Shown piece by piece: positions 25,645 through 55,047 of a stretch of 64,000 bases of DNA. A program made the translations under genes and the position numbers. The notes beneath the pieces are model-generated. The model searched no databases. It saw only the letters and a list, made by a program, of their open reading frames with translations, and was not told where the DNA came from. Origin of the DNA: Gemmatimonadaceae bacterium (GTDB lineage Bacteria > Gemmatimonadota > Gemmatimonadetes > Gemmatimonadales > Gemmatimonadaceae); the NCBI GenBank assembly GCA_019637445.1, contig JAHBVS010000001.1:779586-843585 (forward strand). The letters run 5' to 3'. How positions within the stretch are numbered: the stretch's first letter is position 1; each line of letters opens with the position of its first letter.

Positions 25645-26586
25645 CTAATCTCCGGGCATCGGAGTCGCCACGAGCACAGCCGTGACGACAAGCACGAGGG
25701 CAGCCGCGGTGAGCTCAATCAGCGAGGAGCGGCGGAGCCGCGCGCTTGAGCTAGGCGTGCCAAGTGCCGGAAGCACACGACGCCAGTTGTAGGCACCCGT
25801 GAGTACGGCGATCGAGAGCAGCCCAAGCTTCAACATCAGCGTGCGCCCGTAAGCGCTTTGCCACAGCCGCTCCAGCCCGCCGAGCTGCATCCACGCCGTG
25901 TAGAGCCCGCTGAGGGCGAGGAGTGCGGAGAAGACGAGGGCCGTGGGACTGAAGGCTCGCACCAACCCCGCGATCCGCCCGTCCGCGTCACCCTGCGCGC
26001 CGTCGGTCAGGCCGCGCGCGGTCGGGATCGCCACGACGGTAAGCAGCGCCAGACCCCCGATCCAGCCGCCAGCGCCCAGCAAGTGCGCGAGCTGCGCGGC
26101 CACGCCGCGCGTGGGGGCGTCCGATGCCGCGGGATGTCCGGAGAGCGGTCCCGATGCCGCAAAGGCCAGCGCGGCGGCTGCGGCCAGCCACCAGCCAACT
26201 GCGATCCCGCGCCGCAGACGCGGGGCCAGCCAGATGAGGAAGACAGCGGTCGTGAGCGCCAGCCACCAACCGCGGCCCCAGTCGGAGCGAACGAGCAGGG
26301 CGCCGACCGAGTCTCGCGTCCAGGGCTCTGACGCGCCGAACACGGCGGCGTGCTGCGCAGCGAATCGTGCGAGTGTCGCGAGCACGGCAGCGATGGCCAG
26401 CACATCGATGATTGCCGGCAGCCGTCGGTCGACCGCGGCACGTAGCTCCTCCGCATCAGGGCCGGCATAACGCGCGAGGACCGCCCAGCGGAGACAGAAC
26501 GCGCCAACCAAACCAATCGAGCACGCCGAGAGCAGCGCGCGGATGGCCACAAAAGCCGGTGACTCGACGCCAAATGCCGGCTCCAC
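25645..26586 (-). CDS. copD: CopD-family copper transport membrane protein
   Basis: A 313-residue protein with about eight hydrophobic segments. H-P-A-A-S-D and A-A-Q-L-A-H-L-L-G-A-G-G-W-I-G-G-L-A-L-L match the CopD/PcoD/YcnJ membrane domain, including the His before the G-G-W-I-G-G-L core. CopD is thought to work with periplasmic CopC in copper uptake into the cytoplasm. The gene follows copC with 5 bp between. The CopC-CopD pair lies next to the regulator operon and shares the island operator. Confidence 0.85.
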   Translation of the reverse strand: MEPAFGVESPAFVAIRALLSACSIGLVGAFCLRWAVLARYAGPDAEELRAAVDRRLPAIIDVLAIAAVLATLARFAAQHAAVFGASEPWTRDSVGALLVRSDWGRGWWLALTTAVFLIWLAPRLRRGIAVGWWLAAAAALAFAASGPLSGHPAASDAPTRGVAAQLAHLLGAGGWIGGLALLTVVAIPTARGLTDGAQGDADGRIAGLVRAFSPTALVFSALLALSGLYTAWMQLGGLERLWQSAYGRTLMLKLGLLSIAVLTGAYNWRRVLPALGTPSSSARLRRSSLIELTAAALVLVVTAVLVATPMPGD

Positions 26587-26591
26587 GGCAA

Positions 26592-27002
26592 TCAGGGCAG
26601 TCGGGGGGCTGCTGCGCTGCCCGGCGCGGCGACGCTGGGCAGAATCTCAAACGTGAACTCGCCACGAACGGGGTGCCCGTCATCCCCAGTCACCTGCCAA
26701 CGCACCGTGTATCGCCCGGGCGTGAGCGCGCCTACCGGGGCGATCACCGTGCGGTCATCGCCAGCCGCAAGGCGCAGCGAGTCGGTGCGCAGCGTCTGTC
26801 CGTCCTGGAGCAGCGTGACGCGCGTCAGCGCCAGATCGAGCGACTCATTGAAAGTCAGCTCAAGCTGCCGCGGTGCCGACGGCAGCCTGCTGTCGGCGGC
26901 CGGCGTGGCCTTGAGGAGCCGCGGATGGGCAGTGCTCGCCTGCAGCGGCGCAACCAGGGCAGCGGCGAAGAGCAGGGCGAGGGGTCGTCCGAAAAGTCGC
27001 AT
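26592..27002 (-). CDS. copC: CopC-domain periplasmic copper-binding protein
   Basis: A 136-residue precursor with a signal peptide whose likely cleavage after A25 makes His26 the mature N-terminus. His26, Asp108 and His110 (in G-D-D-G-H-P-V-R-G) then become His1, Asp83 and His85 of the mature protein, the Cu(II) site known from Pseudomonas CopC. The domain is complete (H-P-R-L-L-K-A-T-P-A-A-D-S start, V-R-G-E-F-T-F-E-I end). An operator dyad lies 24 bp before the ATG. Confidence 0.9.
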   Translation of the reverse strand: MRLFGRPLALLFAAALVAPLQASTAHPRLLKATPAADSRLPSAPRQLELTFNESLDLALTRVTLLQDGQTLRTDSLRLAAGDDRTVIAPVGALTPGRYTVRWQVTGDDGHPVRGEFTFEILPSVAAPGSAAAPRLP

Positions 27003-27015
27003 TGAGCAGAGTCCC

Positions 27016-27040
27016 GTAAAAAAAGTTTACACTACGTAAA
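27016..27040. promoter_or_regulatory. BlaI-type operator A, upstream of copC
   Basis: TTTAC (27026-27030), five bases, GTAAA (27036-27040) form a perfect dyad between copC (start 27002) and the M56 gene (end 27094). A second GTAAA (27016-27020), also five bases from TTTAC, makes an overlapping dyad of opposite order. The same half-sites occur before the regulator operon, copA and the cus operon. Binding by the BlaI-type protein is inferred. Confidence 0.72.
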
Positions 27041-27093: not shown

Positions 27094-28170
27094 CTAAGGC
27101 TCGGAAGAGGCAACGTCCAACACGCGGTCGGCCTGGGCCCGATGTGGGCAGCGATCGCCGCTCGAATGGCGACCGATACGCCAGCCGCGACAAAACAGGT
27201 GTGACCACGTGCTCGTGCCCGGATGGTCGCAGTGTGCCGGCACCACGGCCGCGTGATCGTGGGGGGCCACAAGGGGATGAAGCACCATCAGCCCCGAGCT
27301 CCAGATCAGCAGCAGGGCGACAGCGGCGGCGAGCAATGAGCTTCTTGAGGTGTGCGTGGTCGCGAACGCATCCTCACCGGCCAAGCGGCGCACACGCCGA
27401 GGCAGCAAGTCCGCACGCTGGAAGCCGACGGTCGCGGTAACAGGAGCCGGGGAGGCACCGAGCTTGAGGATAGCCGAGGCCAGCGGAAGCGCGAGACGTT
27501 GCGCCACCACGTCATCGGCCGTGATCTCCACCTCGTCCTCAAGGTCGGCGGCAATGCGCCGAAGGACCGGGAGCCAGAAGAGCAGCGCGGCAAGCGTGCG
27601 CAGCGCGAAGAGCCGGAGCGGATCGCGCCGCCGTACGTGCACGGCCTCGTGGGCGAGCACGGCTTCCAGCTCATCGGCAGTGAGTCGCTCCGCAAGATCC
27701 GCGGACACGAAGACGCGCGGTCGAACCCAGCCTGAAGTGAACGCCGGCAGCGGTATCCCGTGCACCTGTCGCAAGCGATCGGGTGGCAGACCCGACGCCT
27801 GGGCGGCGCCGGCGAGCGCGCCACCCGGGGGCACGACGGCGGACGGCAGTGCGCGCATCGTGCGCCAGTGCCGCCAGAGCACGGTGCCCCGCTCGATCAC
27901 CGCATAGACGATCCCCGCGTAGAGGACCCAGTGCGCGAGCTGGTGCACCGGCGCCAAGAGCAGATGAAGCGCGACGAGACAGAACATCGCGAGGTGTTGC
28001 TGGTCCGCCGACATCCAGTCGACGGCTCCCAGAATGTGGTGCCCGACGACCGGCGCAATCCCAAGCAGCAGTGCAGCCACGATGGCGGCGAGCAGGACGC
28101 GGCGGCGCCGCTCCTCGCGGCGAATCACGGGCCGCAGGGCGCCCACGCCGGCCGATGCTCCCTCGATCAC
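27094..28170 (-). CDS. M56 family (BlaR1/MecR1-like) membrane metalloprotease with His/Cys-rich tail
   Basis: A 358-residue protein from GTG 28170, overlapping the BlaI-type gene by 4 bp. Hydrophobic segments lie at about 25-47, 58-93 and 278-297. H-E-A-V-H (174-178) and E-D-E-V-E-I-T-A-D-D (211-220) form the zinc protease site. In BlaR1 the last helix leads to a beta-lactam-binding domain; here it leads to about 60 residues containing eight His (298, 304, 306, 313, 316, 324, 335, 343) and three Cys (314, 327, 341), which topology suggests are outside the membrane. Inferred role: sense copper, then cleave or inactivate the repressor. Confidence 0.84.
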   Translation of the reverse strand: MIEGASAGVGALRPVIRREERRRRVLLAAIVAALLLGIAPVVGHHILGAVDWMSADQQHLAMFCLVALHLLLAPVHQLAHWVLYAGIVYAVIERGTVLWRHWRTMRALPSAVVPPGGALAGAAQASGLPPDRLRQVHGIPLPAFTSGWVRPRVFVSADLAERLTADELEAVLAHEAVHVRRRDPLRLFALRTLAALLFWLPVLRRIAADLEDEVEITADDVVAQRLALPLASAILKLGASPAPVTATVGFQRADLLPRRVRRLAGEDAFATTHTSRSSLLAAAVALLLIWSSGLMVLHPLVAPHDHAAVVPAHCDHPGTSTWSHLFCRGWRIGRHSSGDRCPHRAQADRVLDVASSEP

Positions 28171-28631
28171 TTCTCCCGTTCGCGCATGCGACGCCCGACC
28201 AGTCGCGCCAACTCCTCGAGTTGCGCTGGATTGCGCTCGGCCAACACATCCACAAGCGAGGCCGTGACGGCCTCCGTGCCGAGCGAGAGCAGCCCCTCCA
28301 CGGCCCGCCTCGAGACCTGGAGGACGAAGGCCGCTTCCTCAATGCGGGCGCTGAATCGATATCGCCCGTCCACCCGCTCCCGCGCGAGGAACCCCTTGGC
28401 GACCAAGCGGTTCAGCACGGTCGTGCTGGTCAGTGGCGACACCGGGTGTTCGTCGTGGAGGCGCTCGTGAATCTCCCGGGCCGTGAGCGGTCGCTCCGCG
28501 TCCCAGCAGAGACGCATAAGCTTGGACTCAAGCTCACCGAGCACCGTGCTCACACCTGTGCCCGTGAGCCGAACGGTTTCGGGCAGCTTTGGCGGCGCCG
28601 GTGTCGCGTTCCGCTTCTTGGGGATCGTCAT
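28167..28631 (-). CDS. BlaI/MecI/CopY-family transcriptional repressor
   Basis: Start at ATG 28631 (M-T-I-P-K-K-R-N); the longer frame upstream overlaps the NTF2-like gene in another frame. The 154-residue protein has the winged helix L-G-E-L-E-S-K-L-M-R-L-C-W, P-L-T-A-R-E-I-H-E-R-L, T-S-T-T-V-L-N-R-L-V-A-K-G-F-L-A-R-E-R-V-D-G-R-Y-R-F typical of BlaI. It lacks the C-terminal C-x-C motifs that let CopY bind copper itself, and has one Cys only, so it needs a separate sensor, presumably the co-transcribed M56 protein. Four matching dyads in the island are the likely targets. Confidence 0.88.
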   Translation of the reverse strand: MTIPKKRNATPAPPKLPETVRLTGTGVSTVLGELESKLMRLCWDAERPLTAREIHERLHDEHPVSPLTSTTVLNRLVAKGFLARERVDGRYRFSARIEEAAFVLQVSRRAVEGLLSLGTEAVTASLVDVLAERNPAQLEELARLVGRRMREREK

Positions 28632-28675: not shown

Positions 28676-29188
28676 TCAGGGCATCGGCGGATCGCTGGGG
28701 CGCCGTGCACGACTCGCCGTCTGCGTGAGCCGCACCACCCAGCGGTTGCCTTGGCGCTCGAGGATCGCCGTCCCACGTCCCACCACATCCACCTTGCGGT
28801 CCGGGAGGTCGGCGGTCAGTGCGTACCGAAAAGTCGCCCACGCCATCGCGCCAGAGACGCGCGCTTCGATCTCGAATGGACGGTATCGGAAGTTGGTGAA
28901 CTCCTTCAGCTCGGGGGCGAGATGATTGTCGCGATAGTCCGCCCAGCCGCGATTGATGCCCGCGCCTTCGATGACCAGTAGGCTGTCTCCGGCATAGAGG
29001 GAGTCCAGCGCCCTCAGGTCCCCACGCTCGGCAGCTGCGAAGAGGGCTTGGATGGTCTGGGCGACCGCGGCCTCGGGGCTCGAAGCCGGGGCGTGGCCCG
29101 CGTGCGCGTGGCCTTGGGCCCTAATCCCGGTGGCAGACGAAAGGAGCAGGGCGAGTGTGAGGCCTGCCAAGCGATGAATTCGGGGCAT
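28676..29188 (-). CDS. Secreted NTF2-like (DUF4440/SnoaL-type) protein with His-rich N-terminus
   Basis: A 170-residue precursor with a signal peptide ending A-Q and a mature start G-H-A-H-A-G-H-A-P. The rest is a cone-shaped NTF2-like fold: A-L-F-A-A-A-E-R-G-D-L-R-A-L-D-S-L-Y-A, a central V-I-E-G-A-G-I-N-R-G-W, and W-V-V-R-L-T at the end. Family members bind small ligands; metal binding by the N-terminal His is a guess. It is the first gene of the operon with the repressor (44 bp downstream) and the M56 gene. A paralogue-type protein is at 38069-38521. Confidence 0.78.
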   Translation of the reverse strand: MPRIHRLAGLTLALLLSSATGIRAQGHAHAGHAPASSPEAAVAQTIQALFAAAERGDLRALDSLYAGDSLLVIEGAGINRGWADYRDNHLAPELKEFTNFRYRPFEIEARVSGAMAWATFRYALTADLPDRKVDVVGRGTAILERQGNRWVVRLTQTASRARRPSDPPMP

Positions 29189-29235: not shown

Positions 29236-29252
29236 CTTTACCAACCGTAAAG
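29236..29252. promoter_or_regulatory. BlaI-type operator B, upstream of the NTF2-like/repressor/M56 operon
   Basis: CTTTAC (29236-29241) and GTAAAG (29247-29252) flank five bases, giving a perfect 6+6 dyad 47 bp before the ATG at 29188. This position would give autoregulation of the repressor operon. It is 60 bp from operator C, so the divergent regulator and copA promoters are controlled as a pair. Confidence 0.75.
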
Positions 29253-29295: not shown

Positions 29296-29310
29296 TTTAC
29301 CTTGTGTAAA
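29296..29310. promoter_or_regulatory. BlaI-type operator C, at the copA promoter
   Basis: TTTAC (29296-29300), five bases and GTAAA (29306-29310) form a perfect dyad in a short AT-rich stretch. A plausible -10 box, TATATT (29291-29296, plus strand), sits just before and overlaps it, so a bound repressor would cover the transcription start of the copA operon. No convincing -35 box is seen. Confidence 0.74.
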
Positions 29311-29367: not shown

Positions 29368-31254
29368 GTGTCTGCTTCGTCATCTCAATCGCACGTCTCC
29401 AGAAGGCATTTCCTCGGTACCTCCACGGTACTCGGAGCGGGACTGGCGCTTCCCGCACCCGCGCATCGCGCCGACCAGGATCTGCCGCTCGACCCGGGTT
29501 TGGCGCCGCTGCCTCCCGCCACGAACGGCGTGCGCGAGTACGAACTCGTCATCGCCGAGACGCAGCTGCGTGTGGACGGCCGCCGAGCGCGCGCCACAAC
29601 GATCAACGGCACCTTGCCGGGGCCGACGCTACGCTTCCGCGAGGGCGAGACGGCGGTCATTCGCGTGCGCAATGCGCTCGCGGAGGACACCTCGATCCAC
29701 TGGCACGGCATCCTGCTGCCTCCGGAGATGGACGGTGTGCCTGGCCTGAGCTTCGCGGGCATCGCTCCGGGGCAGACCTTCGAGTACCGCTTTCCGCTGC
29801 AGCAGGCCGGGACCTATTGGTACCACAGCCACTCGGGCTTGCAGGAGCAGTTGGGCCACTACGGCGCCCTTATCGTCGAGTCGGCCGTGCCGAGTGGGCC
29901 TGCGTACGACCGCGAGCACGTGGTGGTGCTCTCGGATTGGACCTTCGAGGATCCCTACCGTGTGCTCTCGAGACTGAAAAAGCAGCCCGACGCCTACAAC
30001 TACCAGCGCCGTACGATGGCCGATTTCGTCCGGGAGGTGGCGCGCGACGGCTTCGCTGCGACGGTCTCGGACCGCCTGATGTGGGCGGGGATGCGAATGA
30101 ATCCAACGGACATCGCCGACGTCACCGGGGCGACCTACACGTATCTCCTGAACGGACGCACTGCGGAGGCACCGTGGGTGGGGCAGTTTACGCCGGGCGA
30201 ACGCCTCCGCCTGCGCATCATCAACGCGGCAGCAGGCTCATACTTTGACGTGCGCATCCCGGGCTGCACGATGACGGTTATCGAAGTGAGCGGACAGCCC
30301 GTTGAGCCGGTGGAGACGGAGGAGTTCCGCATCGCCATCGCCGAGACGTACGACGTGATCGTGGAGCTGCCCGGCAATCGCGCCTCGGCCATCGTGGCCG
30401 AACCGATGGACCGCAGCGGACTCACGGCGGGAACGCTGACGCCGCGGGCAGGGCTCGAGCCCACGCTGCCGGCGCGTCGGCGGCGCCCGTTGCTGACGAT
30501 GGCGGACATGGGCATGGACCATACCGGGATGTCGGGGATGCACGGCGGCGACGACCACGCGGCTATGGGACACGATACGCCGCCAGCGGGCGCGTCCCCG
30601 GCCCCTGCGGTCCACGCCGCCGATGAACACGCCGGGCACGAGATGCCTGAGGTTGCCGCGGCCGCGCCGGCCTTGCGAGCGCCCGGCACGCTGCCGACCG
30701 AGGTCATGCACGACGCCGACTCGCACGGCCGTGAGAACGCGATGGTGCCGACCAGCACGACCTCACGGCTTGCCGAGCCGGGCGCCGGACTGGGCCGTGA
30801 CGGCTGGCGCGTGCTCCGCTATACGGAGCTGCGCTCCCGCGCACCGTGGCCCGAGTACGTGCCGCCGACCCGGGAGCTGGAGCTGCATCTCACGGGCAAC
30901 ATGGAGCGCTTCACCTGGGGCATCGACGGAACACCGTACGACCGTGCGCGACCCATCGAGCTGGCATACGGGGAGCGCGTGCGGCTCACGATCGTGAACG
31001 ACACGATGATGAACCACCCCATGCACCTGCACGGGATGTGGATGCTGCTGGAGAACGGTCAGGGCGATCGCAGTCCGCGCGTCCACACGGTCAACGTCAA
31101 GCCGGCGGAGCGCGTGTCGCTGCTGGTGACGGCCGACGCACCGGGGCGCTGGGCCTTCCACTGCCACGTCCTCTATCATATGGAAGTCGGGATGTTCCGG
31201 GAGGTGCGGGTGTCCGCGATGCCCAGTGAACACGAGGGGCACCACCATGCGTGA
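29368..31254 (+). CDS. copA: CopA-type multicopper oxidase (PcoA family)
   Basis: Read from GTG 29368, which puts a Tat signal (S-R-R-H-F-L-G-T-S-T) near the N-terminus; the open frame continues to 29302, but that part lies in the operator. The 628-residue protein has the four copper-ligand motifs: I-H-W-H-G, Y-W-Y-H-S-H-S-G, H-P-M-H-L-H-G, and H-C-H-V-L-Y-H-M-E-V-G-M. A His/Met-rich loop (about 30500-30660) holds many M-x-M, H-x-G-M and M-G-H elements, as in CopA/PcoA. It is exported to the periplasm and oxidises or sequesters Cu(I). First gene of a nine-gene run with overlaps. Confidence 0.92.
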   Translation: MSASSSQSHVSRRHFLGTSTVLGAGLALPAPAHRADQDLPLDPGLAPLPPATNGVREYELVIAETQLRVDGRRARATTINGTLPGPTLRFREGETAVIRVRNALAEDTSIHWHGILLPPEMDGVPGLSFAGIAPGQTFEYRFPLQQAGTYWYHSHSGLQEQLGHYGALIVESAVPSGPAYDREHVVVLSDWTFEDPYRVLSRLKKQPDAYNYQRRTMADFVREVARDGFAATVSDRLMWAGMRMNPTDIADVTGATYTYLLNGRTAEAPWVGQFTPGERLRLRIINAAAGSYFDVRIPGCTMTVIEVSGQPVEPVETEEFRIAIAETYDVIVELPGNRASAIVAEPMDRSGLTAGTLTPRAGLEPTLPARRRRPLLTMADMGMDHTGMSGMHGGDDHAAMGHDTPPAGASPAPAVHAADEHAGHEMPEVAAAAPALRAPGTLPTEVMHDADSHGRENAMVPTSTTSRLAEPGAGLGRDGWRVLRYTELRSRAPWPEYVPPTRELELHLTGNMERFTWGIDGTPYDRARPIELAYGERVRLTIVNDTMMNHPMHLHGMWMLLENGQGDRSPRVHTVNVKPAERVSLLVTADAPGRWAFHCHVLYHMEVGMFREVRVSAMPSEHEGHHHA

Positions 31255-32011
31255 GCGCCGATTCGTCGCGACGCTTGCCGCGGTGGGCGCGCTTTGTACG
31301 GGTGGGGGTGCGGCAGCCGCCCAGGTCCCCGACAGCACCGCCACCCATCCGGCGCACGGCATGGCCTGGGGACGTGAGACGTTCCTGCTGTCCGAGGTGC
31401 TCGAATACGGGCCGGCCGGGGCGAACCGGGGGCTGGACTACGACCTTTTGGCTTGGAGTGGCGGTGCCGTGCATCGGGTGTGGGCCAAGGTCGACGGTGG
31501 ACTGGCGACCCAGGGCCAATCCGTACACGGAGAATACCAACTGCTCTATGGAAAGCTCGTGTCGCCGTGGTGGGACGCGCAGCTTGGGCTGCGGGTCGAT
31601 CAGCGTTCGGAGCAAGGCACGTCGCGGTCACGCGTCGGGGCCGTGGTGGGGCTGCAGGGGCTGGCACCAGGCTGGTTCGAACTGGAGCCGTCGCTCTTCA
31701 TCACGGCGGATGGCAACGCCGCCATCGACCTGACGGCCTCGTACGACCTCTTCCTCACGCAGCGGCTCGTGGTGCAGCCGCGACTCGAGACCTCAGCGGC
31801 GCTCCGCGACGAACCGACCTTTGGAGTCGGCCGCGGGCTCGTCAGCACGTCGTTCGGGATCCGAACGCGTCTCGAGTTCCGGCGCGAGTTCGCCCCCTAC
31901 GTTGGACTCGTGTGGGACCGCGCCTACGGTCGAAGCGCGTCGCTGGCCCGACTGGCGGGGGAAGCGACGGGAGACACGCGGTTTGTGGCGGGTCTCCGGT
32001 TGTGGTACTGA
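31247..32011 (+). CDS. copB: CopB/PcoB-like outer membrane copper resistance protein
   Basis: Start at ATG 31247, overlapping copA by 8 bp. The 254-residue precursor has a signal peptide ending A-A-A-Q. It contains D-Y-D-L-L-A-W-S-G-G-A-V-H-R-V-W-A-K-V-D-G, W-W-D-A-Q-L-G-L-R-V-D and alternating beta segments ending in Y, the CopB beta-barrel pattern. The long Met/His-rich N-terminal region of plasmid CopB is reduced here to T-H-P-A-H-G-M. Role: copper export or binding at the outer membrane with CopA. Confidence 0.87.
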   Translation: MRERRFVATLAAVGALCTGGGAAAAQVPDSTATHPAHGMAWGRETFLLSEVLEYGPAGANRGLDYDLLAWSGGAVHRVWAKVDGGLATQGQSVHGEYQLLYGKLVSPWWDAQLGLRVDQRSEQGTSRSRVGAVVGLQGLAPGWFELEPSLFITADGNAAIDLTASYDLFLTQRLVVQPRLETSAALRDEPTFGVGRGLVSTSFGIRTRLEFRREFAPYVGLVWDRAYGRSASLARLAGEATGDTRFVAGLRLWY

Positions 32012-32035: not shown

Positions 32036-34138
32036 ATGACGCACGGACACCACGATCACGGAGCGCACGGCGCACACGACCCTAAGCCGTCCGGCGCACA
32101 CGAACACGATCACACCGCGCCGTCCGGGGACGGGACCGCCGAGCATCGAGGGCACGGCGCACCCGACCACGACCGACACGCCGGCCATTCCCCGGCGATG
32201 TTCCGGGACAAGTTCTGGCTGTCCTTTGCCCTCTCGATCCCGGTCGTGGTGTGGTCGGCCCACATCCAGGATCTGCTGGGATACTCGGCACCACGATTCC
32301 CGGGCTCCGCGTGGATCCCCCCCCTGCTCGGCACGTTCGTGTTCCTCTACGGCGGGCTGGTATTCCTCCGCAGTGCGGTGGGCGAACTCTCAGCGCGCCT
32401 TCCGGGGATGATGACGCTGATCTCGCTCGCCATCACGGTTGCGTTTGTCTTCTCGTGGGTCGCGACGACGGGCCTTGTTCGGGCCGAGGCACTGTGGTGG
32501 GAGCTGGCGACGCTCGTCACCATCATGCTGCTTGGGCATTGGATTGAGATGCGTTCGATTGACCAGGCCCGCGGGGCGCTCAAGGAGTTGGCGAAACTCC
32601 TCCCCGACGAGGCGACGCGACTCGTCGCCGGTGGCGAGGAACGTGTTGCGGTCTCGGCGCTCCGGAACGGCGACTTGCTCCTCGTCCGGCCCGGCGAGCG
32701 CGTACCCGCCGACGGAATCGTGCGGAAGGGGGAGAGCGACCTGAACGAGTCGATGATCACCGGCGAGTCGCGGCCGGTGCGCAAGCAGGAGGGGGACGCC
32801 GTCATCGCCGCGACGATCAACGGCGAGGGTTCCCTTCGCATCGAGGTCACCGGCACCGGTGAGCACACGAAGCTTTCGGGGATCATGCGCCTCGTGGCCG
32901 ATGCACAGCAGTCCAAGTCCCGTGCGCAGCATCTCGCCGACCGCGCCGCACAGCTTCTCACGGTCGTCGCGATCGTCTCGGCCGGCCTCACAATGCTCGC
33001 CTGGCAACTCGCCGGTGCGCCAATCGACTTCTCGGTGGTGCGGGTCGTGACGGTGCTCGTCATCGCCTGCCCGCACGCGCTCGGGCTTGCGGTGCCGCTC
33101 GTCGTCGCGATCTCGACAACGCTCGGGGCCCGCAACGGGCTCCTGGTGCGGGACCGGCGCGGGCTCGAGGAGGCACGCGCCCTCGACACCGTCATCTTCG
33201 ACAAGACGGGAACGCTCACGCTCGGCGAGTTCCGGGTGGTGGCGATGGCGGTCGCCGACGGGCTCACGGAGGCAGAGGCGCTTGCCATCGCCGCCGCAGT
33301 GGAGGGGGAGAGCCAGCATCCGATTGCCAAGGGCATCGTACGCACCGCTGCGTCGCGGGGGGTCGCCGTTCCGACGATGGAACGCTTCCGCTCGATCACC
33401 GGCCGCGGCGTGGCCGGCACGGTCGGCGGCATCGAGTATCTGCTCGGCGGCCCAGCACTGCTGCGGTCGGGCGAGGTCACCATCCCGCCGGTCCTTCGCG
33501 AGGCATCCGAAGCGGCGGCCTCGCGGGGCCAAGCGGCGATTCACCTCGTACGCGACGGCGGGGCGATCGCTGTCTTCGCCGTCGCAGACGCGATCCGCGA
33601 GGAGAGCCGCGAGGCCATTCACGCGCTCCACGAGCGCGGGATTGAGGTCGCGATGCTCACCGGCGACGCGCAGGCCGTCGCCGATGCAGTCGCGAACGAA
33701 CTTGGCATTGACACCGTCTTCGCACAGGTACTGCCCGAGGACAAGGCCTCAAAGGTCAAGGAGCTCCAGTCTCGCGGGAAGAAGGTCGCGATGGTCGGCG
33801 ACGGGGTGAACGACGCGCCGGCGCTGGCGACGGCCGACATCGGTATCGCCATCGGCGCCGGGACCGACGTCGCGGTCGAGGCCGGCCACATCGTCCTCGT
33901 GCGGTCCGACCCGCGAGACATTCCGCGGATCGTGGGGCTCAGCCGCGCGACGTACCGCAAGATGATACAGAACCTCTGGTGGGCTGCCGGCTACAACATC
34001 GTCGCCATCCCGCTCGCGGCGGGAGTCGGCGCGGCGTGGGGCATCTTGCTGACGCCGGCAATCGGGGCGGCGTTCATGTCGTTGAGCACGATCATCGTCG
34101 CGATCAACGCGCAGCTGCTGAAACGCACGAGGCTCTGA
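32036..34138 (+). CDS. P1B-3-type copper-translocating ATPase (CPH motif)
   Basis: A 700-residue heavy-metal P-type ATPase. The first 55 residues contain about 17 His (T-H-G-H-H-D-H-G-A-H), a metal-binding tail, with no CxxC domain. The transmembrane metal site is C345-P-H347, which marks the P1B-3 (CopB-like) group; D389-K-T-G-T is the phosphorylation site, and M-L-T-G-D and G-D-G-V-N-D follow. M-S-L-S-T near the C-terminus completes the metal site. It exports Cu(I)/Cu(II) or Ag+ from the cytoplasm. The stop overlaps the patatin start (TGATG). Confidence 0.93.
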   Translation: MTHGHHDHGAHGAHDPKPSGAHEHDHTAPSGDGTAEHRGHGAPDHDRHAGHSPAMFRDKFWLSFALSIPVVVWSAHIQDLLGYSAPRFPGSAWIPPLLGTFVFLYGGLVFLRSAVGELSARLPGMMTLISLAITVAFVFSWVATTGLVRAEALWWELATLVTIMLLGHWIEMRSIDQARGALKELAKLLPDEATRLVAGGEERVAVSALRNGDLLLVRPGERVPADGIVRKGESDLNESMITGESRPVRKQEGDAVIAATINGEGSLRIEVTGTGEHTKLSGIMRLVADAQQSKSRAQHLADRAAQLLTVVAIVSAGLTMLAWQLAGAPIDFSVVRVVTVLVIACPHALGLAVPLVVAISTTLGARNGLLVRDRRGLEEARALDTVIFDKTGTLTLGEFRVVAMAVADGLTEAEALAIAAAVEGESQHPIAKGIVRTAASRGVAVPTMERFRSITGRGVAGTVGGIEYLLGGPALLRSGEVTIPPVLREASEAAASRGQAAIHLVRDGGAIAVFAVADAIREESREAIHALHERGIEVAMLTGDAQAVADAVANELGIDTVFAQVLPEDKASKVKELQSRGKKVAMVGDGVNDAPALATADIGIAIGAGTDVAVEAGHIVLVRSDPRDIPRIVGLSRATYRKMIQNLWWAAGYNIVAIPLAAGVGAAWGILLTPAIGAAFMSLSTIIVAINAQLLKRTRL

Positions 34139-34998: not shown

Positions 34999-35762
34999 TC
35001 CCGACGCAGCTCGTCTGGTTCTCGTGGTCGGTCGCCTTCCTTGTGCCGTGGGCGCTGCTCTACTGGCGATTCCCCGCGCATCGGCGGGCGATGTGGCGCT
35101 CCTCGCTACTGACGACGCCGTTTGGCCTCACCGAACCGCTGTTCGTGCCCGAGTACTGGGACCCGCCGAGCCTCTTCGACCTCGCACAGCGCACGGGATT
35201 CGACGTCGAGAGCCTGATCTTCTGTTTTGGCATCGGCGGGGTCGCTGCGGTGCTGGTCGCAGCCCTGACACGGCGTACGCGCACGGCAGCGCCCGCGCAC
35301 GAGCGAACCGCATCGCGGCATCGGTTTCATCGCTGGGCGCTCGCGTCGCCCTTCATCACCTTCGTCGCGCTCCTGCCGCTGGGCTGGAATCCGATCTACC
35401 CCGGCATCGTTGCCATGCTCGTCGGAGGTGTCGCGTCGCTGCTCTGCCGACCCGATCTAGCGCGCGTAATACTTCTCGGCGGGGTCGCGTTCGTCGCGTA
35501 CTACGCCGTGTTCCTCGTTGGGCTCGAGGCATCCGCTCCAGCCGACTACATCCGAAGCGTCTGGAACCTCCAGGCACTGTCCGGCGTGATGATTGGCTTC
35601 ATTCCGCTGGAGGAAGTGCTGTTCGCCTTTGGATTCGGGACCTACTGGAGCGGCATCTACGAGCACGTCACGTGGCATCAGCTGCACTCGGCGGGCATCA
35701 CGCCGCAGGTCGCCACGACTCCCGAACATCACGCTCCCCATGACACGGAGGGTGCCCCATGA
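34995..35762 (+). CDS. Lycopene cyclase domain-like membrane protein
   Basis: A 255-residue membrane protein with six to seven hydrophobic segments, starting at ATG 34995 by ATGA overlap. It has the lycopene-cyclase-domain signature P-L-E-E-V-L-F-A-F-G-F-G-T-Y-W near the C-terminus and a matching F-V-P-E-Y-W-D-P-P segment near the start. No other carotenoid gene is near, so real cyclase activity is doubtful. The C-terminal tail is His-rich (H-H-A-P-H-D). Similar genes appear in metal-resistance clusters, from memory. Confidence 0.76.
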   Translation: MIPTQLVWFSWSVAFLVPWALLYWRFPAHRRAMWRSSLLTTPFGLTEPLFVPEYWDPPSLFDLAQRTGFDVESLIFCFGIGGVAAVLVAALTRRTRTAAPAHERTASRHRFHRWALASPFITFVALLPLGWNPIYPGIVAMLVGGVASLLCRPDLARVILLGGVAFVAYYAVFLVGLEASAPADYIRSVWNLQALSGVMIGFIPLEEVLFAFGFGTYWSGIYEHVTWHQLHSAGITPQVATTPEHHAPHDTEGAP

Positions 35763-36112
35763 CGCTCCTGCTCTACTTGGCCGCCGTCGCCGTCCTCGTC
35801 TTTGGCGCACTCCGCTACGTGCGCGCAGACGAGGACGCCGAACCCGCTCCGCGCGCGCTCCCCATCGTGCCGCTCGGGTGGGCCTTGAGTCTCTTTCTGG
35901 CGATCACGTACCTCGCCTGCATCGTGTTCGATCTCGCGGTCCCGGGATCCGCGATGCGCGACGCTTGGTCCGGGCTCCTGCCTGGCTTCGTCTGGCTCAC
36001 ACCCACTGGCTTCGCTCTGGGGCTGCTTGGGAGCTTGCTCTATGGCTGGTACATCGCGCTGCTGTTCGGTGGGCTCTACAACGCCATCGTCAGGCGCACG
36101 AGGACATCATGA
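35759..36112 (+). CDS. DUF5676-like small membrane protein
   Basis: A 117-residue protein with three membrane segments, overlapping both neighbours by 4 bp. L-S-L-F-L-A-I-T-Y-L-A-C-I-V-F-D, L-L-P-G-F-V-W-L-T and S-L-L-Y-G-W-Y-I-A-L-L-F-G-G-L-Y-N match the DUF5676 pattern, a family with no known function that is common near metal and redox genes. The Cys in the first core segment is conserved in the family from memory. Confidence 0.72.
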   Translation: MTLLLYLAAVAVLVFGALRYVRADEDAEPAPRALPIVPLGWALSLFLAITYLACIVFDLAVPGSAMRDAWSGLLPGFVWLTPTGFALGLLGSLLYGWYIALLFGGLYNAIVRRTRTS

Positions 36113-48012: not shown

Positions 48013-48642
48013 TCAACCTTTTGCGGCGCCGCGCGACGCGGCCACTCCCGGTCCGACTGCCGCAACGCTGGCGGTCGACTGTTCGCGGACTCGCCGTCCG
48101 ATACGCAGGGCGCCACGGAGGACGAGCCAGCAGACGATCAACCCGATGGCGAGATCGGGTATCGCGGAGTCGAGCAGCGCCACGAGCGCGCCGGCGAGCA
48201 GTACGCCGAGGTTCGCCTGCACGTCGGTGGCGGAGAAGATCCAGGCAGCCTGCAGATGGACCTCGCCGTGTCGATGGCGGCGAAGGAGGGCGAGGCACCA
48301 GATGTTGACAGCGAGTGCTGCGATGGAGACCGCGACCATGGCCGGCGGCTCCGGCGCACTGCCCAGAACCGCGCGCCGCGCCAGCTCGAGCATCGCCAGC
48401 ACGGCGAGACCGAGCTGGACGCGGCCTGCGAACCGCGCGGCCCGCAGCTTGCGCGACTCGGTCGCGCCGATCGCAAGCAGGGCGAGCAAGTAGACGGCGG
48501 CATCGGCCCCCATATCGAGGCCGTCGGCGATGAGGCCCATCGACTCCGCTCGCCAGCCACTGGCGAGTTCGACGAAGAACATCGTGCCGTTCAGCGCGAA
48601 CAGCGTGCTCAACGCGCGACGCCCGAGATGCTCGTTACCCAT
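48013..48642 (-). CDS. Short cation diffusion facilitator (CDF) transporter
   Basis: Start at ATG 48642 (M-G-N-E-H-L-G-R-R-A-L); 209 residues with six hydrophobic segments. A-D-G-L-D-M-G-A-D-A in helix 2 and A-T-D-V-Q-A-N in helix 5 are the CDF metal-binding pattern (D-x-x-x-D). The cytoplasmic C-terminal domain of normal CDF proteins (about 300 residues) is absent, as in a short CDF branch. It would export Zn2+ or Co2+. It is separate from the Czc operon by 62 bp, on the same strand, and has its own spacer. Confidence 0.82.
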   Translation of the reverse strand: MGNEHLGRRALSTLFALNGTMFFVELASGWRAESMGLIADGLDMGADAAVYLLALLAIGATESRKLRAARFAGRVQLGLAVLAMLELARRAVLGSAPEPPAMVAVSIAALAVNIWCLALLRRHRHGEVHLQAAWIFSATDVQANLGVLLAGALVALLDSAIPDLAIGLIVCWLVLRGALRIGRRVREQSTASVAAVGPGVAASRGAAKG

Positions 48643-48795
48643 CACGCATCTTCGACTGGCAAGCGCAAATCCACAACCTGCAAGCAAGTCCTGCAGCACC
48701 ACCCCGATGCCAGTACGGCGACCTGACGCACGCTCGGCTTCGATCCAAGGCCAGCGACACGATCCCGCACCCGGCATTCAGGCCCCAGTCGCCCA

Positions 48796-51700
48796 CTAGC
48801 TGAGGTTAGCACCGGCCCTCCGCAATCCCCACTCCCGCCAGAGCGAGTATGCCGCCGGAATCACGAGCAGCGTGAGGACGGTGCTTGACACCATTCCTCC
48901 AACCATCGGGGCCGCGATGCGCTTCATCACGCTCGACCCGGCTCCATCGGTCCACATAATCGGAAACAAGCCAGCCATGATGGCCGTGACCGTCATCAAT
49001 TTTGGCCGCACCCGTTCGACCGCACCTTCAATCACCGCGCGGTAAAGAACGCTCCCGTCCGGTGCCGCGTCGGGCGGAAGCTGACTCAACGCCGCCTTCC
49101 AAGCGTGGTCCAAGTAGATGACCATCACTACACCGGTCTCGGCGGCCACGCCTGCCAACGCAATGAACCCCACCGCGACGGCGACGGACCAGTTGTATCC
49201 AAGGAGGTACACCAACCAGAGGCCACCCACGAGCGCGAAGGGAAGCGAGAGCAGCACCAAGAACGTTTCGGCCGCATTGCGGAAGTTCAGATAGAGGAGC
49301 AGCACGATGATCGAGAGTGTCACGGGAATCACTACGCGCATCGTGCGGCGAGCACGCTCCATATACTCGTATTGTCCACTCCACCGCAGCGAATAGCCGG
49401 CCGGCAACGCGACCTGCTCGGCGACCGTGCGTCTCGCCTCCTCTACGTAGCTGCCGACATCCCGGCCCGTAACGTCCACGTACACCCACGCCGTCGGAAC
49501 CGCGCCCTCCGTCCGCACGACCATCGGGCCGGGACTCAGCCGGATGCTCGCGATCTGTCCAAGCGGGATCTGTGCGGCAGCCCGCCCGGATGCCTGCCCA
49601 ACGGCCATCCCAGCCATACTCGCCGCGGCCGTTGCCATCGGTCCCGCGACCGTCGCGGGCACGAGGACCTCCGCGAGTTGCTCGGGCGACTCGCGCAGTT
49701 CCTGCGGGTAGCGCACGCGGACGCCGTAACGCTCGCGTCCCTCGACGGTCTCCGTGATGACCATCCCGCCGACTGCCGCGGCAATCACATCCTGCGCGTC
49801 GGCGACATTGATTCCGTAGCGCGCGGCGGCCGTCCGGTCGAGTTCAATGTCGACGTAGTAGCCGCTGACAGCCCGCTCAGCGAACACGCTACGGGTGCCC
49901 GGCACCATCTGGACCGCGGCCTCGACCTGACGGGCCACCTCCTCGAGCACCCCGAGATCCGGCCCGAACACCTTGACGCCTACCGGCGTGCGGATACCCG
50001 TGGCGAGCATGTCGATGCGCCCCTTGATGGGCATCGTCCACGCGTTGATGATCCCAGGCATTCGTACCGCGCGGTCCATCTCGTCGATGAGGCCCTCGAG
50101 CGTGATGCCCGGCCGCCACGCCGACTCCGGCTTCAGCGAGATTGTGGTCTCGATCATGTCGAGGCCCGCGGGATCCGTGGCCGTCTCCGCACGACCGGCC
50201 TTGCCCCAGACACGCTCCACCTCGGGGAAGCTCTGCAGGATGCTGTCCTGCGTGGTGAGCAGCGCACGTGCGCGCGCCACGCTCAGTCCTGGGAGGGTTT
50301 GCGGCATGAAGAGAATCGTCCCCTCCTCCACCGGCGGCATGAACTCGCTGCCAGTCCGCGCCCAGGGGACCCAACTGAGGATCAGGACGGCAGCTGCGGC
50401 CGTCAGGACGCCCCATCGGCGGCGCAGGACCGCATCGATCAGCGGCCGATACCAACGCACCAGAACGCGGTTGAGCGGGTTGGATGCCTCGCGGTAGATG
50501 CGACCCCTCACGAATAGCCCCATCGCAACGGGCACCAGCGTGACGGACAGCAGGCTCGCCGCCGCCATCGCAAACGTCTTGGTGAAGGCGAGCGGCTTGA
50601 ACATCCGTCCCTCCTGGCCCTCAAGCGCGAAGACGGGCAGGAACGACACCGTGATGATGAGCAGCGAGAAGAACAGCGCCGGTCCCACCTCCTGCGCCGA
50701 GGTCACGACGATGCGCCATCGCTCGCGGGCGCTGAGGCTCCGCGTGTCAAACCAGCGCGCGTCCCGATCATCGCGGGGAGGCAAGGCGCGTTCCAGGTGT
50801 TTGTGCATATTCTCGATCATCACAATCGCCGCATCAATCATCGCGCCGATGGCAATCGCGATTCCGCCCAATGACATAATATCCGCGCTGACGCCCACCC
50901 AACGCATGGCGAGGAAGGCGATCAGGATGCCGATCGGGAGCGTGACGATGGCGACCAGCGCCGAACGCAGGTGCAGCAAGAAGGCGATGCAGACCAACGC
51001 CACCACGAGCGACTCCTCGATCAACTTGGCGCGCAGGTTCTCGACCGCGTGGTGGATCAGCGCCGAGCGGTCGTACACTGGGGTGATGACCACGCCAGCC
51101 GGCAGTCCCGCCTGCAGCTCCGCAAGCCGGGCCTTCACGCGCTCGATGACGGCCAACGCATTCTCGCCAATGCGCATCACGACGATGCCCCCGACCGCGT
51201 CTCCGCGGCCGTCGAGGTCGGCAATGCCGCGCCGCACCGCGGGCCCGACGCCGACCGTCGCCACGTCCCCCACCCGCACGGGCGTGCCGGACGCCCTCGC
51301 CCCCACCACGACAGCCTCGATGTCGGCGACCGAGCCGAGGTAGCCGAGCCCGCGCACCATAAACTCGCGCTCGCTCAACTCCATCACCATCGCCCCGACA
51401 TCGTTGTTGGCGCGCTGCACCGCCGCCATCACCTGCGGCACGCTCACGCCAAAGGCCCGGAGCCGTGCCGGATCGAGGTCGACCTGGTACTGCTTCTCAT
51501 AGCCGCCGATGCTGGCTACCTCGCTGACGCCGGGTACCGCCGTGAGCTGGTAACGCAGCGTCCAGTCCTGCAGGCTGCGCAGCTCGGCGAGCGTCATCCG
51601 GCCGCTGCGGTCCTCGAGGGCGTACTGGTAGACCCAGCCGAGGCCCGTGGCGTCCGGCCCCAATCGTGCCTGTGCGCCCTCAGGCAGGCGCGACTGGATG

Positions 51701-52047
51701 CCGCTGAGGTATTCAAGGACTCGTGATCGCGCCCAGTACAGATCGGTGCCGTCCTCGAAAATCACGTACACGAAGGAGACACCGAAGAATGAGTACCCGC
51801 GGACGACGCTGGCGCCGGGCACCTTGAGCATCTCGGCCGCAATCGGATACGTGACCTGGTCCTCGACGATGCGCGGCGCCTGCTCATTGAACTCCGTCTG
51901 CACGATCACCTGGACGTCGCTCAGGTCTGGCAGGGCCTCAAGCGGCGTCTGCCGCAGGGCGTACCAGCCGCCCAGCACGGAGGCGACCGTAAAGAGTGCG
52001 ACGAGGAAACGGTTGTGCGCAGACCACGCGATGAGGGATCGGAGCAT
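48796..52047 (-). CDS. cusA: CusA-type heavy-metal RND efflux pump (Cu+/Ag+)
   Basis: A 1083-residue RND pump. Helix 4 reads A-I-A-I-G-A-M-I-D-A-A-I-V-M-I-E-N-M-H-K, the monovalent (Cu/Ag) signature. D-M-I-E-T-T-I-S-L-K and R-I-D-M-L-A-T-G-I match the region of the methionine ligands of E. coli CusA. Compared with the Czc-type pump at 41655 it is clearly a different subtype. It has a slightly longer C-terminus and a loop M-A-T-A-A-A-S-M-A-G-M that is Met-rich. The adaptor gene ends 3 bp before it. Confidence 0.93.
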   Translation of the reverse strand: MLRSLIAWSAHNRFLVALFTVASVLGGWYALRQTPLEALPDLSDVQVIVQTEFNEQAPRIVEDQVTYPIAAEMLKVPGASVVRGYSFFGVSFVYVIFEDGTDLYWARSRVLEYLSGIQSRLPEGAQARLGPDATGLGWVYQYALEDRSGRMTLAELRSLQDWTLRYQLTAVPGVSEVASIGGYEKQYQVDLDPARLRAFGVSVPQVMAAVQRANNDVGAMVMELSEREFMVRGLGYLGSVADIEAVVVGARASGTPVRVGDVATVGVGPAVRRGIADLDGRGDAVGGIVVMRIGENALAVIERVKARLAELQAGLPAGVVITPVYDRSALIHHAVENLRAKLIEESLVVALVCIAFLLHLRSALVAIVTLPIGILIAFLAMRWVGVSADIMSLGGIAIAIGAMIDAAIVMIENMHKHLERALPPRDDRDARWFDTRSLSARERWRIVVTSAQEVGPALFFSLLIITVSFLPVFALEGQEGRMFKPLAFTKTFAMAAASLLSVTLVPVAMGLFVRGRIYREASNPLNRVLVRWYRPLIDAVLRRRWGVLTAAAAVLILSWVPWARTGSEFMPPVEEGTILFMPQTLPGLSVARARALLTTQDSILQSFPEVERVWGKAGRAETATDPAGLDMIETTISLKPESAWRPGITLEGLIDEMDRAVRMPGIINAWTMPIKGRIDMLATGIRTPVGVKVFGPDLGVLEEVARQVEAAVQMVPGTRSVFAERAVSGYYVDIELDRTAAARYGINVADAQDVIAAAVGGMVITETVEGRERYGVRVRYPQELRESPEQLAEVLVPATVAGPMATAAASMAGMAVGQASGRAAAQIPLGQIASIRLSPGPMVVRTEGAVPTAWVYVDVTGRDVGSYVEEARRTVAEQVALPAGYSLRWSGQYEYMERARRTMRVVIPVTLSIIVLLLYLNFRNAAETFLVLLSLPFALVGGLWLVYLLGYNWSVAVAVGFIALAGVAAETGVVMVIYLDHAWKAALSQLPPDAAPDGSVLYRAVIEGAVERVRPKLMTVTAIMAGLFPIMWTDGAGSSVMKRIAAPMVGGMVSSTVLTLLVIPAAYSLWREWGLRRAGANLS

Positions 52048-52050
52048 AGC

Positions 52051-53292
52051 CTAGTGCCTCCCGTGCCCGTCCGGCGCCGCGGGCGGCGTCGGAGTCGACG
52101 CCTCCATATCGGACATTCCCGGCATCGCCGCCATCGCGCCGAGCGCCGCGCGCACATTCGACTCCGCATCGACGAGGAAGGTCGCAGACGCGACCACGAC
52201 ATCGCCGATGGCAATCCCGTCAAGAACCTCGACCATCGTGTCGCTGCGACGCCCCAGCCGTACCTCGTGCGGCATCAGCATACCATCTGCCATCCGCACG
52301 AACACCACGTCCCGGACGCCGGTGGAGAGCACCGCGGACCTGGGGATGACCAAGGCGTCGCCCTCCGACGGCCGGAGGACCAGCGACGCGTACATTCCGG
52401 GCTTGAGCCGGCCGTCGCGGTTGTCCAGTACGACGCGGACCCGCAACGTGCGCGTCGCGTCATCCACGGTGGGATACACATACGCAATGCGTGCCAGCCG
52501 CCGGTGGCCGTTCAACGCCTCGAAGCGCAGTTCGACCGGCACGCCCTCCCGCAGCATCGCGGCATCCTGCTCGAACACCTCACCCTCCACCCACACCGTC
52601 GAGAGGTCTGCGAGCGCAAGGACCTCATCACCCGACATAATGCGCTGCCCGGCGACGATTCGACGCGTCAGCACATACCCGGCCACGGGCGAATACAGCG
52701 TCAGCGCGCGCCGCGGTTGTCCTTCTGCCGCGATCGCCGTCAGCTCCCGCTGCTGGATGTCCCAGTACTCCAGCCGCCGCGAAGCGGCACGGACAAGCGC
52801 GTCCGAGTCGGGGCCTGGCGCTGCGGCGGCCAAGCGCCGGGCAAGCAGGTACTCCTCCTGTGCGGCGACTAACTGCGGGGAGTAGATGCTGAACAACGGC
52901 TCGCCCTCGCGCACGAACTGACCCGTGGTATTCACCCAGAGACGCTCAATCCAGCCCTCGACCTTGGGCGAGATGCTGTGCAGGCGCCCCTCGTCCGGAA
53001 CAACAGTTCCCACGGCGCGCAGCTCACGTGCCAACGAAGCGCGGGCAGCCGTGGCATAGGTGATCCCGATGCGCTTGGCCGCGGCCGAGTCCACCGTCAC
53101 ACTGGCGCGGGTCTCACTCGCTGGACCGCCGCCATGATCGTGCCCGACGTCGTTCGCCGCGGCGGGACCGCGGGACAGCCACCAGCTCGCCGCCGCTGCG
53201 GTCACGAGCACGCCGGCCATCAGTAGCACGGACCGCCGACGCCGACTCCCATCGGCGGATGCGGCCACCACGTCGCGCGACTCGCTGGTCAT
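52051..53292 (-). CDS. cusB: CusB-type periplasmic adaptor
   Basis: A 413-residue membrane fusion protein with an N-terminal anchor (S-V-L-L-M-A-G-V-L-V-T-A-A-A-A-S-W-W) and a G-H-D-H-G-G-G stretch after it. The adaptor core is V-G-T-V-V-P-D-E-G-R-L, the lipoyl half K-V-E-G-W-I-E-R-L-W-V and the helical hairpin around E-E-Y-L-L-A-R-R-L-A-A-A. The C-terminal tail (M-A-A-M-P-G-M-S-D-M, ending H-G-R-H) is rich in Met and His, unusual for an adaptor, and may hold Cu+. Start overlaps cusC by 4 bp. Confidence 0.9.
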   Translation of the reverse strand: MTSESRDVVAASADGSRRRRSVLLMAGVLVTAAAASWWLSRGPAAANDVGHDHGGGPASETRASVTVDSAAAKRIGITYATAARASLARELRAVGTVVPDEGRLHSISPKVEGWIERLWVNTTGQFVREGEPLFSIYSPQLVAAQEEYLLARRLAAAAPGPDSDALVRAASRRLEYWDIQQRELTAIAAEGQPRRALTLYSPVAGYVLTRRIVAGQRIMSGDEVLALADLSTVWVEGEVFEQDAAMLREGVPVELRFEALNGHRRLARIAYVYPTVDDATRTLRVRVVLDNRDGRLKPGMYASLVLRPSEGDALVIPRSAVLSTGVRDVVFVRMADGMLMPHEVRLGRRSDTMVEVLDGIAIGDVVVASATFLVDAESNVRAALGAMAAMPGMSDMEASTPTPPAAPDGHGRH

Positions 53293-54614
53293 TCCCCCTC
53301 CCCTGGCGCCGGAAGCGCCGCGGCCACTAGGGCCTCAAGAGTTGCCCACAGCCGTCCCTCGTCCGCTTGCAACGCCACATACTCCAGCCGAAACTCGTTG
53401 AGGGCCACCTGGCTCTCAGCGAGCGACATAAACGGCAGATCGCCAGCTCGATACGCCAGCAATGAGGATTCGACCGTTGCCGCCGCCTGCGGAAGGATGC
53501 TCGTGTCGTATAGGGCCAACAGGCGTTGCGACTTGTGCAGCTCTGCCAGCGCGCCCTCGATCTCGGCACGGGTTGTCGCGCGCATCGCCTGCAGGTCGGC
53601 CTGCGCCATCGCCAACATCGCCTCGCGTTCGGTTCGCCAGGCCAGCTGACGCCTCGCGGCAAAGACGGGCAGCGACGCACCGAGCATCAGGCTCCCCATC
53701 CGTTCCGTCGCGCCGCCCTCCCGCCGCTGACCGACCGCAACGCCCACCTGCAGGTCCGGCCAGAGCTCGAGGCGCGTGGCTGCAAGCGCCGAATTGGCGC
53801 TCTCCACAAGAGCCGCTCCGGCCACCAGCTCCGGGCGCCGCCGATCCGCCAAATCCGCGACGGAATCGAGCGGCGGGATCGTTCGTCCCCGCGACGCCAC
53901 CACCGTGCGGCCAACGGCCGCGCCCGCTGGGCGGTCGAGAAGACCGTTCAGGCGGGCCACGGCGGTAACACGAGCCGACGCAAGCCGTTGCAGTTCCTCG
54001 TCCATCTGCTCGACTTGGACGCGCGCGCGCAGCACGTCGGCCTGGCGACCATCCCCGACCTCATACATCGCTCGCGCCACGGTCAGGAGCTGCTCCATCA
54101 CCTGTTTGGTCTCGGCGACGATTTCCATCGATTGCTCAAGCCGCCAGACGTCGTGGAAGGCCTCACTCACCCGCAGTCGCTCGCTCCACTCCACGGCCGC
54201 GGCGTTCGCGGCCGCCGCACTGGCGGTGGCGTCCGCCGCGCCGCGCGCGAGCCGCAACCGCCGCGTGAGGGGGAGCATCTGCATCACCTGGAGCTGCGTC
54301 ATCCCGAGCGGCGACATCGGTGCAAGTCCCGGGAGTTGGCGATTCATCAGACCGAGCTGCACCTGCGGGTCGTCCAGTGTGCCGGCGGTTGGCGCAACGG
54401 CGAGGGCGGCCTGCGCGGCGGACCGCGCAGCCCGAATCCTGGGGCTCGCCTCGAGCAATGCATATGCGTCCTCGAGCCGCTGGATGGACCTCCGTGTCGC
54501 GGTGCTATCCTCCTGCTGCGCGGGCGCCGAGCGCGGAACACCCATGCCCACGAACGCAAGAATCGCGGTGGCGACGGCGACCAACGCAGGTCGGCCCCCA
54601 CAAAGTCGAATCAT
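53289..54614 (-). CDS. cusC: CusC-like TolC-family outer membrane channel
   Basis: A 441-residue precursor with signal peptide (A-P-A-Q-Q) and two OEP domains; long amphipathic helices include R-L-E-D-A-Y-A-L-L-E-A-S-P-R-I-R and the second repeat D-R-R-R-P-E-L-V-A-G-A-A-L-V. It carries Cu+/Ag+ from CusBA through the outer membrane. Its stop overlaps the cusB start by 4 bp. It follows a Cys-rich secreted-protein gene by 61 bp. Confidence 0.86.
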   Translation of the reverse strand: MIRLCGGRPALVAVATAILAFVGMGVPRSAPAQQEDSTATRRSIQRLEDAYALLEASPRIRAARSAAQAALAVAPTAGTLDDPQVQLGLMNRQLPGLAPMSPLGMTQLQVMQMLPLTRRLRLARGAADATASAAAANAAAVEWSERLRVSEAFHDVWRLEQSMEIVAETKQVMEQLLTVARAMYEVGDGRQADVLRARVQVEQMDEELQRLASARVTAVARLNGLLDRPAGAAVGRTVVASRGRTIPPLDSVADLADRRRPELVAGAALVESANSALAATRLELWPDLQVGVAVGQRREGGATERMGSLMLGASLPVFAARRQLAWRTEREAMLAMAQADLQAMRATTRAEIEGALAELHKSQRLLALYDTSILPQAAATVESSLLAYRAGDLPFMSLAESQVALNEFRLEYVALQADEGRLWATLEALVAAALPAPGEGE

Positions 54615-54675
54615 TCAGGTCCTCCGGAAATGCGGGAATGGAGCGGGCGCGCGGCGGCGCGACCCTCAATGCCGG

Positions 54676-55047
54676 TCAGGTGACCGGTGACACTCCAGAG
54701 CCGCGCGGAGGCGGCGAATCGGGCGCCCACTGTTCGCGGGAGGGCGGCAGACACACGGTGGACGAGTCGGAGGCCGCGGGCTTGGTGCCTTTGACGACGG
54801 CGTGAGCGCACTGCCCGAGCGGAACCACGCAACTGGCGCAGGCACCGGGCGTCCGGCAGGGCGCCATCGGTGCATCGCTCCGGCAGTCGCGCAGGACCCT
54901 GGCTGCGTCGGGCACGCTGCCATCCACCTGCGCACGCTCCACCAAATGCTCGCACGCCACCATCCCACTCGCCGAGGCCCACGGTCCAACGGGTGACAGG
55001 AGCAGCAGCACAAGCGCAACGACTAACCGCGGAAGCACAGTGTACAC
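54676..55047 (-). CDS. Small secreted Cys-rich protein, first gene of the cus operon
   Basis: A 123-residue protein from GTG 55047 with signal-peptide-like start (V-V-A-L-V-L-L-L-L-S-P-V-G-P-W-A-S-A). The mature part has seven Cys, including C-R-T-P-G-A-C-A-S-C-V, and no known domain. Similar short Cys-rich genes precede RND metal operons in relatives, from memory; a periplasmic Cu(I) binder is a reasonable guess. No Shine-Dalgarno site is seen. Operator D lies about 62 bp upstream. Confidence 0.6.
   Translation of the reverse strand: MYTVLPRLVVALVLLLLSPVGPWASASGMVACEHLVERAQVDGSVPDAARVLRDCRSDAPMAPCRTPGACASCVVPLGQCAHAVVKGTKPAASDSSTVCLPPSREQWAPDSPPPRGSGVSPVT

Follow-up and report, generated by a model that had tools for sequence, protein, structure and literature searches.

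BlaR1 and MecR1 of Staphylococcus work with the paired repressors BlaI and MecI, the signal being received outside the cell and proteolysis taking place inside (PMC9834060). BlaR1 has four full transmembrane (TM) helices, and its beta-lactam signal reaches helix alpha-3 by way of the extracellular loop EL1, which this helix directly follows (PMC9834060). A BlaR1 homologue of M. tuberculosis has no sensor domain (PMC9834060). The question addressed here is how a BlaR1-type protease can sense anything besides a beta-lactam. The original prediction for this locus was unaware of any characterised copper sensor of the BlaR1 type; one does exist, in PetP/PetR of Synechocystis sp. PCC 6803. PetP belongs to the BlaR1 family and PetR to the BlaI/CopY family; according to PMC7896320, PMC10141476 and PMC13421787, which credit the finding to Garcia-Canas et al. 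2021 (10.1073/pnas.2017898118), PetP is a protease that degrades the regulator PetR when copper is present. PetR both represses and activates, and PetRP controls four genes only, namely petE, petJ and two genes without a known function (PMC7896320). One review adds that copper homeostasis is not under PetRP control and that it is still to be elucidated what BlaR homologues do in heterotrophic marine species (PMC10141476). These reviews do not assign the copper sensor of PetP to a site or location.

We describe a BlaI-M56 gene pair in a Gemmatimonadaceae bacterium (Gemmatimonadota), a system of this phylum for which no paper was found in the open-licence literature. The window (the whole 64,000-nucleotide stretch that was analysed) places the pair inside a cluster of copCD, multicopper oxidase, copB and Cu-ATPase genes. 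A SnoaL-like gene, copC and copD lie on the same strand as the pair; the multicopper oxidase, CopB and copper P-type ATPase genes are divergent. The genes are as follows.

25645 to 26586, minus strand: CopD (profile match)
26592 to 27002, minus strand: CopC (profile match)
27094 to 28170, minus strand: antirepressor of 358 aa, a BlaR1-type M56 membrane protease (open reading frame, Pfam, alignment and model)
28167 to 28625, minus strand: BlaI-family repressor of 152 aa without a CxC motif; its gene overlaps the M56 gene by 4 bp
28676 to 29188, minus strand: secreted SnoaL/DUF4440-like protein that has an HAHAGHA segment in its N-terminal part; the blaI-M56 operon begins with this gene
29368 to 31254, plus strand: CopA-type multicopper oxidase with a Tat-like signal
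31226 to 32011, plus strand: CopB outer-membrane copper resistance protein
32036 to 34138, plus strand: copper-translocating P-type ATPase with a His-rich N-terminus
48796 to 54614, minus strand: cusC-, cusB- and cusA-like heavy-metal RND efflux genes (53289 to 54614, 52051 to 53292 and 48796 to 52047, respectively)

As in PetP/PetR, the gene for a BlaI-type regulator adjoins that for a BlaR1-type membrane protease; here the GTG start of the M56 gene overlaps the blaI stop by 4 bp, an arrangement that indicates translational coupling. The pair differs from PetP/PetR, with which it was compared by published description and not by PetP sequence, in its copper-resistance regulon, its TTTAC-N5-GTAAA operators and a conserved extracytoplasmic Cys/His tail. 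The Gemmatimonadota pair therefore seems to act in the manner of PetRP, although on a copper-resistance regulon and with a candidate sensor that can be read from the sequence. A pair of the PetP/PetR type was already known; what is new here is the identifiable extracytoplasmic ligand set, the copper-resistance regulon, the operator and the phylum. We consider it likely that this BlaI-M56 repressor-antirepressor protease pair responds to copper and controls a copper-resistance regulon through periplasmic sensing and proteolysis of the repressor.

The M56 protein scored 48.1 bits against Peptidase_M56 (PF05569; Pfam cut-off 31). With the GTG start counted as residue 1, it carries an HExxH motif (H174-E-A-V-H178), D183 and a downstream ExxxD (E215-xxx-D219), which align with H201/H205, D210 and E242xxxD246 of BlaR1, so the zinc protease core named in the original prediction is present. 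The predicted layout is TM1 (~25-43), TM2 (~61-92), a cytoplasmic protease, TM3 (~277-297) and a periplasmic tail (298-358). In an AlphaFold2 model, for which the input was three close sequences plus distant ones, the protease core was well determined (pLDDT >90) and the tail poorly (pLDDT about 45-60). Five BlaR1 entries occupied ranks 1-5 among the structural matches to this model (Z 13.0-13.9), one of them aligning over 165 residues at 2.7 A. A loop with a conserved G-F before R-R-x-x-R-L may resemble the autocleavage loop of BlaR1.

The protein thus shares with BlaR1 and MecR1 the M56 fold, the catalytic residues and a paired repressor, and differs in having a Cys/His tail and no penicillin-binding domain. 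The claim that the BlaR1 membrane segments are present held in part: the model has three long TM helices, whereas BlaR1 has four full ones. The 61 residues after TM3 contain no Pfam domain, and the match to NCBIfam blaR1_generic was 15 bits against a cut-off of 400. Beta-lactam sensing was ruled out on the lack of a sensor domain in both the Pfam and NCBIfam comparisons.

The original prediction had named a cytoplasmic tail as evidence against itself, and the distribution of charged residues bears on this point. Mean K/R counts were 5.2 before TM1, 4.5 after TM2 and 4.4 before TM3, whereas the TM1-TM2 loop and the first 30 tail residues averaged 0.7 each. By the positive-inside rule this bias places the protease in the cytoplasm and the tail in the periplasm. 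As in BlaR1, the segment outside follows the last TM helix, where BlaR1 has its sensor domain. The two groups of candidate ligands on this side of the membrane are encoded as follows.

27094 to 27279, minus strand: codons of the predicted periplasmic His/Cys tail, with the motif C314-x-H316...H324-L-F-C327...C341-P-H343
27931 to 28041, minus strand: codons 44-80, with His/Cys residues of TM1/TM2 that are conserved and lie on the periplasmic side (H44, H45, H59, C64, H69, H76 and H80)

As originally counted, the tail of about 60 residues after the last helix (residues 298-358) holds eight His and three Cys. For a single sequence this enrichment is moderate (10 of the 23 His/Cys of the protein in 59 residues, p = 0.0014), and the case for the tail is decided by its conservation. 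A search of the phylum (395 genomes) yielded about 45 full-length M56 homologues with 38-71% identity, and 43 Gemmatimonadota sequences were aligned. C314, H324 and C327 were present in all 43; C341 and H343 were present in 42, H298 in 40, H313 in 38 and H316 in 36. Of the eight His originally counted, five are conserved, but H304 (2/43), H306 (15/43) and H335 (3/43) are not. The motif C-x(1-3)-H-x(5-7)-H-[LVI]-x-C-x(9-15)-C-x-H was found in 41 of the 43 homologues, and the His/Cys pattern was unchanged after thinning to 37 sequences less than 80% identical (mean identity about 46%). The tail matched no Pfam family at E values up to 1. Short actinobacterial M56 proteins (Rv1845c type) likewise have no sensor domain and lie beside blaI; those compared, however, have no Cys/His tail and mostly no copper neighbors. 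The tail was rejected as a general trait of short M56 proteins, since it was absent from the actinobacterial and other proteins compared, which came from scanning 84,980 species genomes.

A second set of His/Cys, unmentioned in the original prediction, is as strongly conserved as the tail set (86-100% of homologues). H44 (37/43) and H45 (42/43) lie where TM1 ends, and H59 (39/43), C64 (43/43), H69 (40/43), H76 (42/43) and H80 (42/43) lie in the first half of TM2. H69, H76 and H80 are spaced by 7 and 4 residues, which would put them on one face of the helix. In the structural alignment TM2 takes the position of alpha-3, the signalling helix of BlaR1. Because the TM1/TM2 residues are equally conserved, the tail is probably not the whole sensor. 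The deciding metal site might even be in the membrane (H44/H45/H59/C64/H69/H76/H80), with the tail as an accessory lid or structural zinc-binding element. This is a serious but doubtful alternative: the strength of conservation in TM1/TM2 speaks for it, as does the alignment of TM2 to the helix that follows EL1 in BlaR1, an element that moves on signalling, while the invariant Cys and His of the tail stand in the region where conservation is otherwise lowest (mean column identity 0.37 in the 43 homologues), and the two sites may well act together. Whether the Cys3His4 tail folds onto the TM1/TM2 His/Cys hairpin to make one copper site, so that binding moves the protease-gating helix, seems to us evenly balanced. 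If it does, a minimal metal-binding ectodomain would have taken the place of the antibiotic sensor, and the protein would become the first BlaR1-type metal receptor with a defined ligand site, in the first such system known to run copper detoxification.

The partner of the M56 protein scored 66.9 bits against Penicillinase_R/BlaI (PF03965; Pfam cut-off 22.6). Like CopY and TcrY, it is a BlaI/CopY superfamily repressor encoded beside copper genes; it differs from them in having no Cys motif and another operator, and sensing has apparently moved to the partner protease. The repressor has one Cys; of its 46 orthologues 24 have none and 22 have one, and a CxC motif occurs in none of the 46, in agreement with the original prediction that the C-x-C motif of CopY is missing. 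As judged from its sequence, the repressor is unable to sense copper by the CopY route. Membership of the BlaI/CopY family and a weak score against CopY/TcrY (TIGR02698; 33.8 bits, below the cut-off of 121.95) would fit a repressor that senses copper directly while the M56 protein sets only its level. With no CxC, 24 of 46 orthologues devoid of Cys and an operator different from the CopY cop box, we regard this as very improbable, and direct sensing of the CopY type was rejected on Cys scarcity and operator type.

Candidate operators were recognized as the palindrome TTTAC-N5-GTAAA, to which the repressor would bind. Three exact sites were present in the window (27026, 29237 and 29296) where none was expected in shuffled sequence, and these are the only exact copies in the 3.35-Mb genome, all at the copper locus.

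27026 to 27040, unstranded: operator TTTACACTACGTAAA before copCD
29237 to 29251, unstranded: operator TTTACCAACCGTAAA, over a -10-like hexamer of the SnoaL-blaI-M56 operon
29296 to 29310, unstranded: operator TTTACCTTGTGTAAA before the multicopper oxidase-copB-ATPase genes
55109 to 55123, unstranded: one-mismatch operator-like site TTTACGCTGTGTATA before the cusCBA-like operon, a probable distal target

The start of the multicopper oxidase was set at the GTG at 29368 because the operator overlaps a TTG at 29302. The one-mismatch copy at 55109 is 26 kb off, ahead of the cusC-cusB-cusA-like genes, and exact copies precede CusC in relatives; for these two reasons the regulon probably includes the cus-type RND pump. 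In 701 kb surrounding 46 homologous genes, TTAC-N5-GTAA occurred at 48 sites, compared to 0-2 sites for spacers of 3, 4, 6, 7 or 8, and 37 of the 48 stood just before multicopper oxidase, CopC, SnoaL, BlaI, CusC or CuATPase genes. The CopY-type sequence TACANNTGTA was not found in the same 701 kb. Among 140 genomes of the family that were covered by both the M56 and the operator searches, the operator was present in 31 of 44 with the M56 subfamily and in 12 of 96 without it (Fisher p about 1.5e-11, a value that overstates the evidence because related genomes are not independent), and a reversed control pattern showed no association with the subfamily in the same genomes. The remaining 13 of the 44 have no exact operator, so it must drift or differ there.

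A family search tied the tailed M56 homologues of Gemmatimonadota to copper genes more generally. At homologous loci of at least 7 kb, blaI was present in 41 of 42 and copper genes (copC, copD, copB, multicopper oxidase or Cu-ATPase) in 36 of 42, compared to 5 of 39 loci of other M56 genes (p about 2e-11; the two sets differ in phylum and in the way they were obtained, and the test shows association, not cause). Six loci of at least 7 kb have no recognized copCD, multicopper oxidase, copB or ATPase gene, and three of these (L070, L073 and L074) carry cusA-like genes. No close viral or plasmid copies were found. Pairs of M56 and BlaI genes are widespread, and copper genes are rare at the other M56 loci compared, as might be expected of a general stress or cell-wall regulator that stands beside copper genes by chance. 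Such a regulator is a very unlikely explanation here in view of the subfamily-wide association, the operators on copper genes and the restriction of the exact operators to three in the genome.

The identity of the signal is a separate matter. Sets of Cys/His ligands are not metal-specific, and the tail and TM1/TM2 sites would also suit Zn(II) or Ag(I). The same mechanism might answer to silver, to zinc or to copper stress that oxidises the three Cys, and the CusA/CzcA-family RND pump and CDF transporter in the probable regulon are compatible with this. We think another signal unlikely, because the exact operators front genes of copper type (copCD, multicopper oxidase, copB and Cu-ATPase).

Periplasmic copper sensing by the M56 protein followed by repressor proteolysis, as originally proposed, is the reading best supported by the extracytoplasmic Cys/His, the topology, the intact protease, the Cys-poor repressor, the operator and the copper genes; only the assignment of sensing to the tail by itself probably needs widening. 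From these features we infer that the repressor binds the operators, that the M56 protein binds metal, that the signal is copper and neither silver nor zinc, that the protease becomes active and that it cleaves the repressor. Without copper, the BlaI-type repressor would occupy the TTTAC-N5-GTAAA sites of its own operon as well as those before copCD and before the multicopper oxidase-copB-ATPase genes. Rising periplasmic copper would be bound by the Cys/His of the tail, probably jointly with the His/Cys at the periplasmic ends of TM1 and TM2. Metal binding would shift the TM2 helix and so activate the cytoplasmic zinc protease, which would cut the repressor and free the operators. The genes derepressed would be copCD, the multicopper oxidase-copB-ATPase genes, the regulator operon itself and probably the cus-type pump. 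This would be a route to copper resistance that reads the periplasm and is neither a two-component system of the CusRS/CopRS type nor cytoplasmic sensing of the CopY/CueR/CsoR type. The M56 subfamily offers a small receptor with a near-invariant candidate ligand set, a repressor without the known copper motif and a 15-bp operator with exact copies at the predicted target genes only, and binding, proteolysis and derepression can each be tested separately.

Several smaller features of the locus were also recorded. The SnoaL/DUF4440-like gene (28676-29188) is also present at about half the homologous loci, and its product is possibly a periplasmic copper-binding protein. The multicopper oxidase (29368-31254, plus strand) contains a Met/His-rich insert, MADMGMDHTGMSGMHGGDDHAAMGH, and the Cu P-type ATPase opens with a His-rich stretch of roughly 50 residues (MTHGHHDHGAHGAHD..., 32036-32190, plus strand). 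Shortly downstream of the ATPase gene, past patatin and lycopene cyclase-like genes, lies a gene for a two-TM DUF5676 protein (35759-36112, plus strand). The region of the cusC-cusB-cusA-like operon (48013-55123) includes a CDF gene, and a small Cys-containing open reading frame (54676-55047) precedes the operon. The genome has two more M56 genes, both outside this subfamily, at C1:450048-450626 (L001) and C1:463783-464307 (L002), with frames of 853 and 467 aa, respectively.
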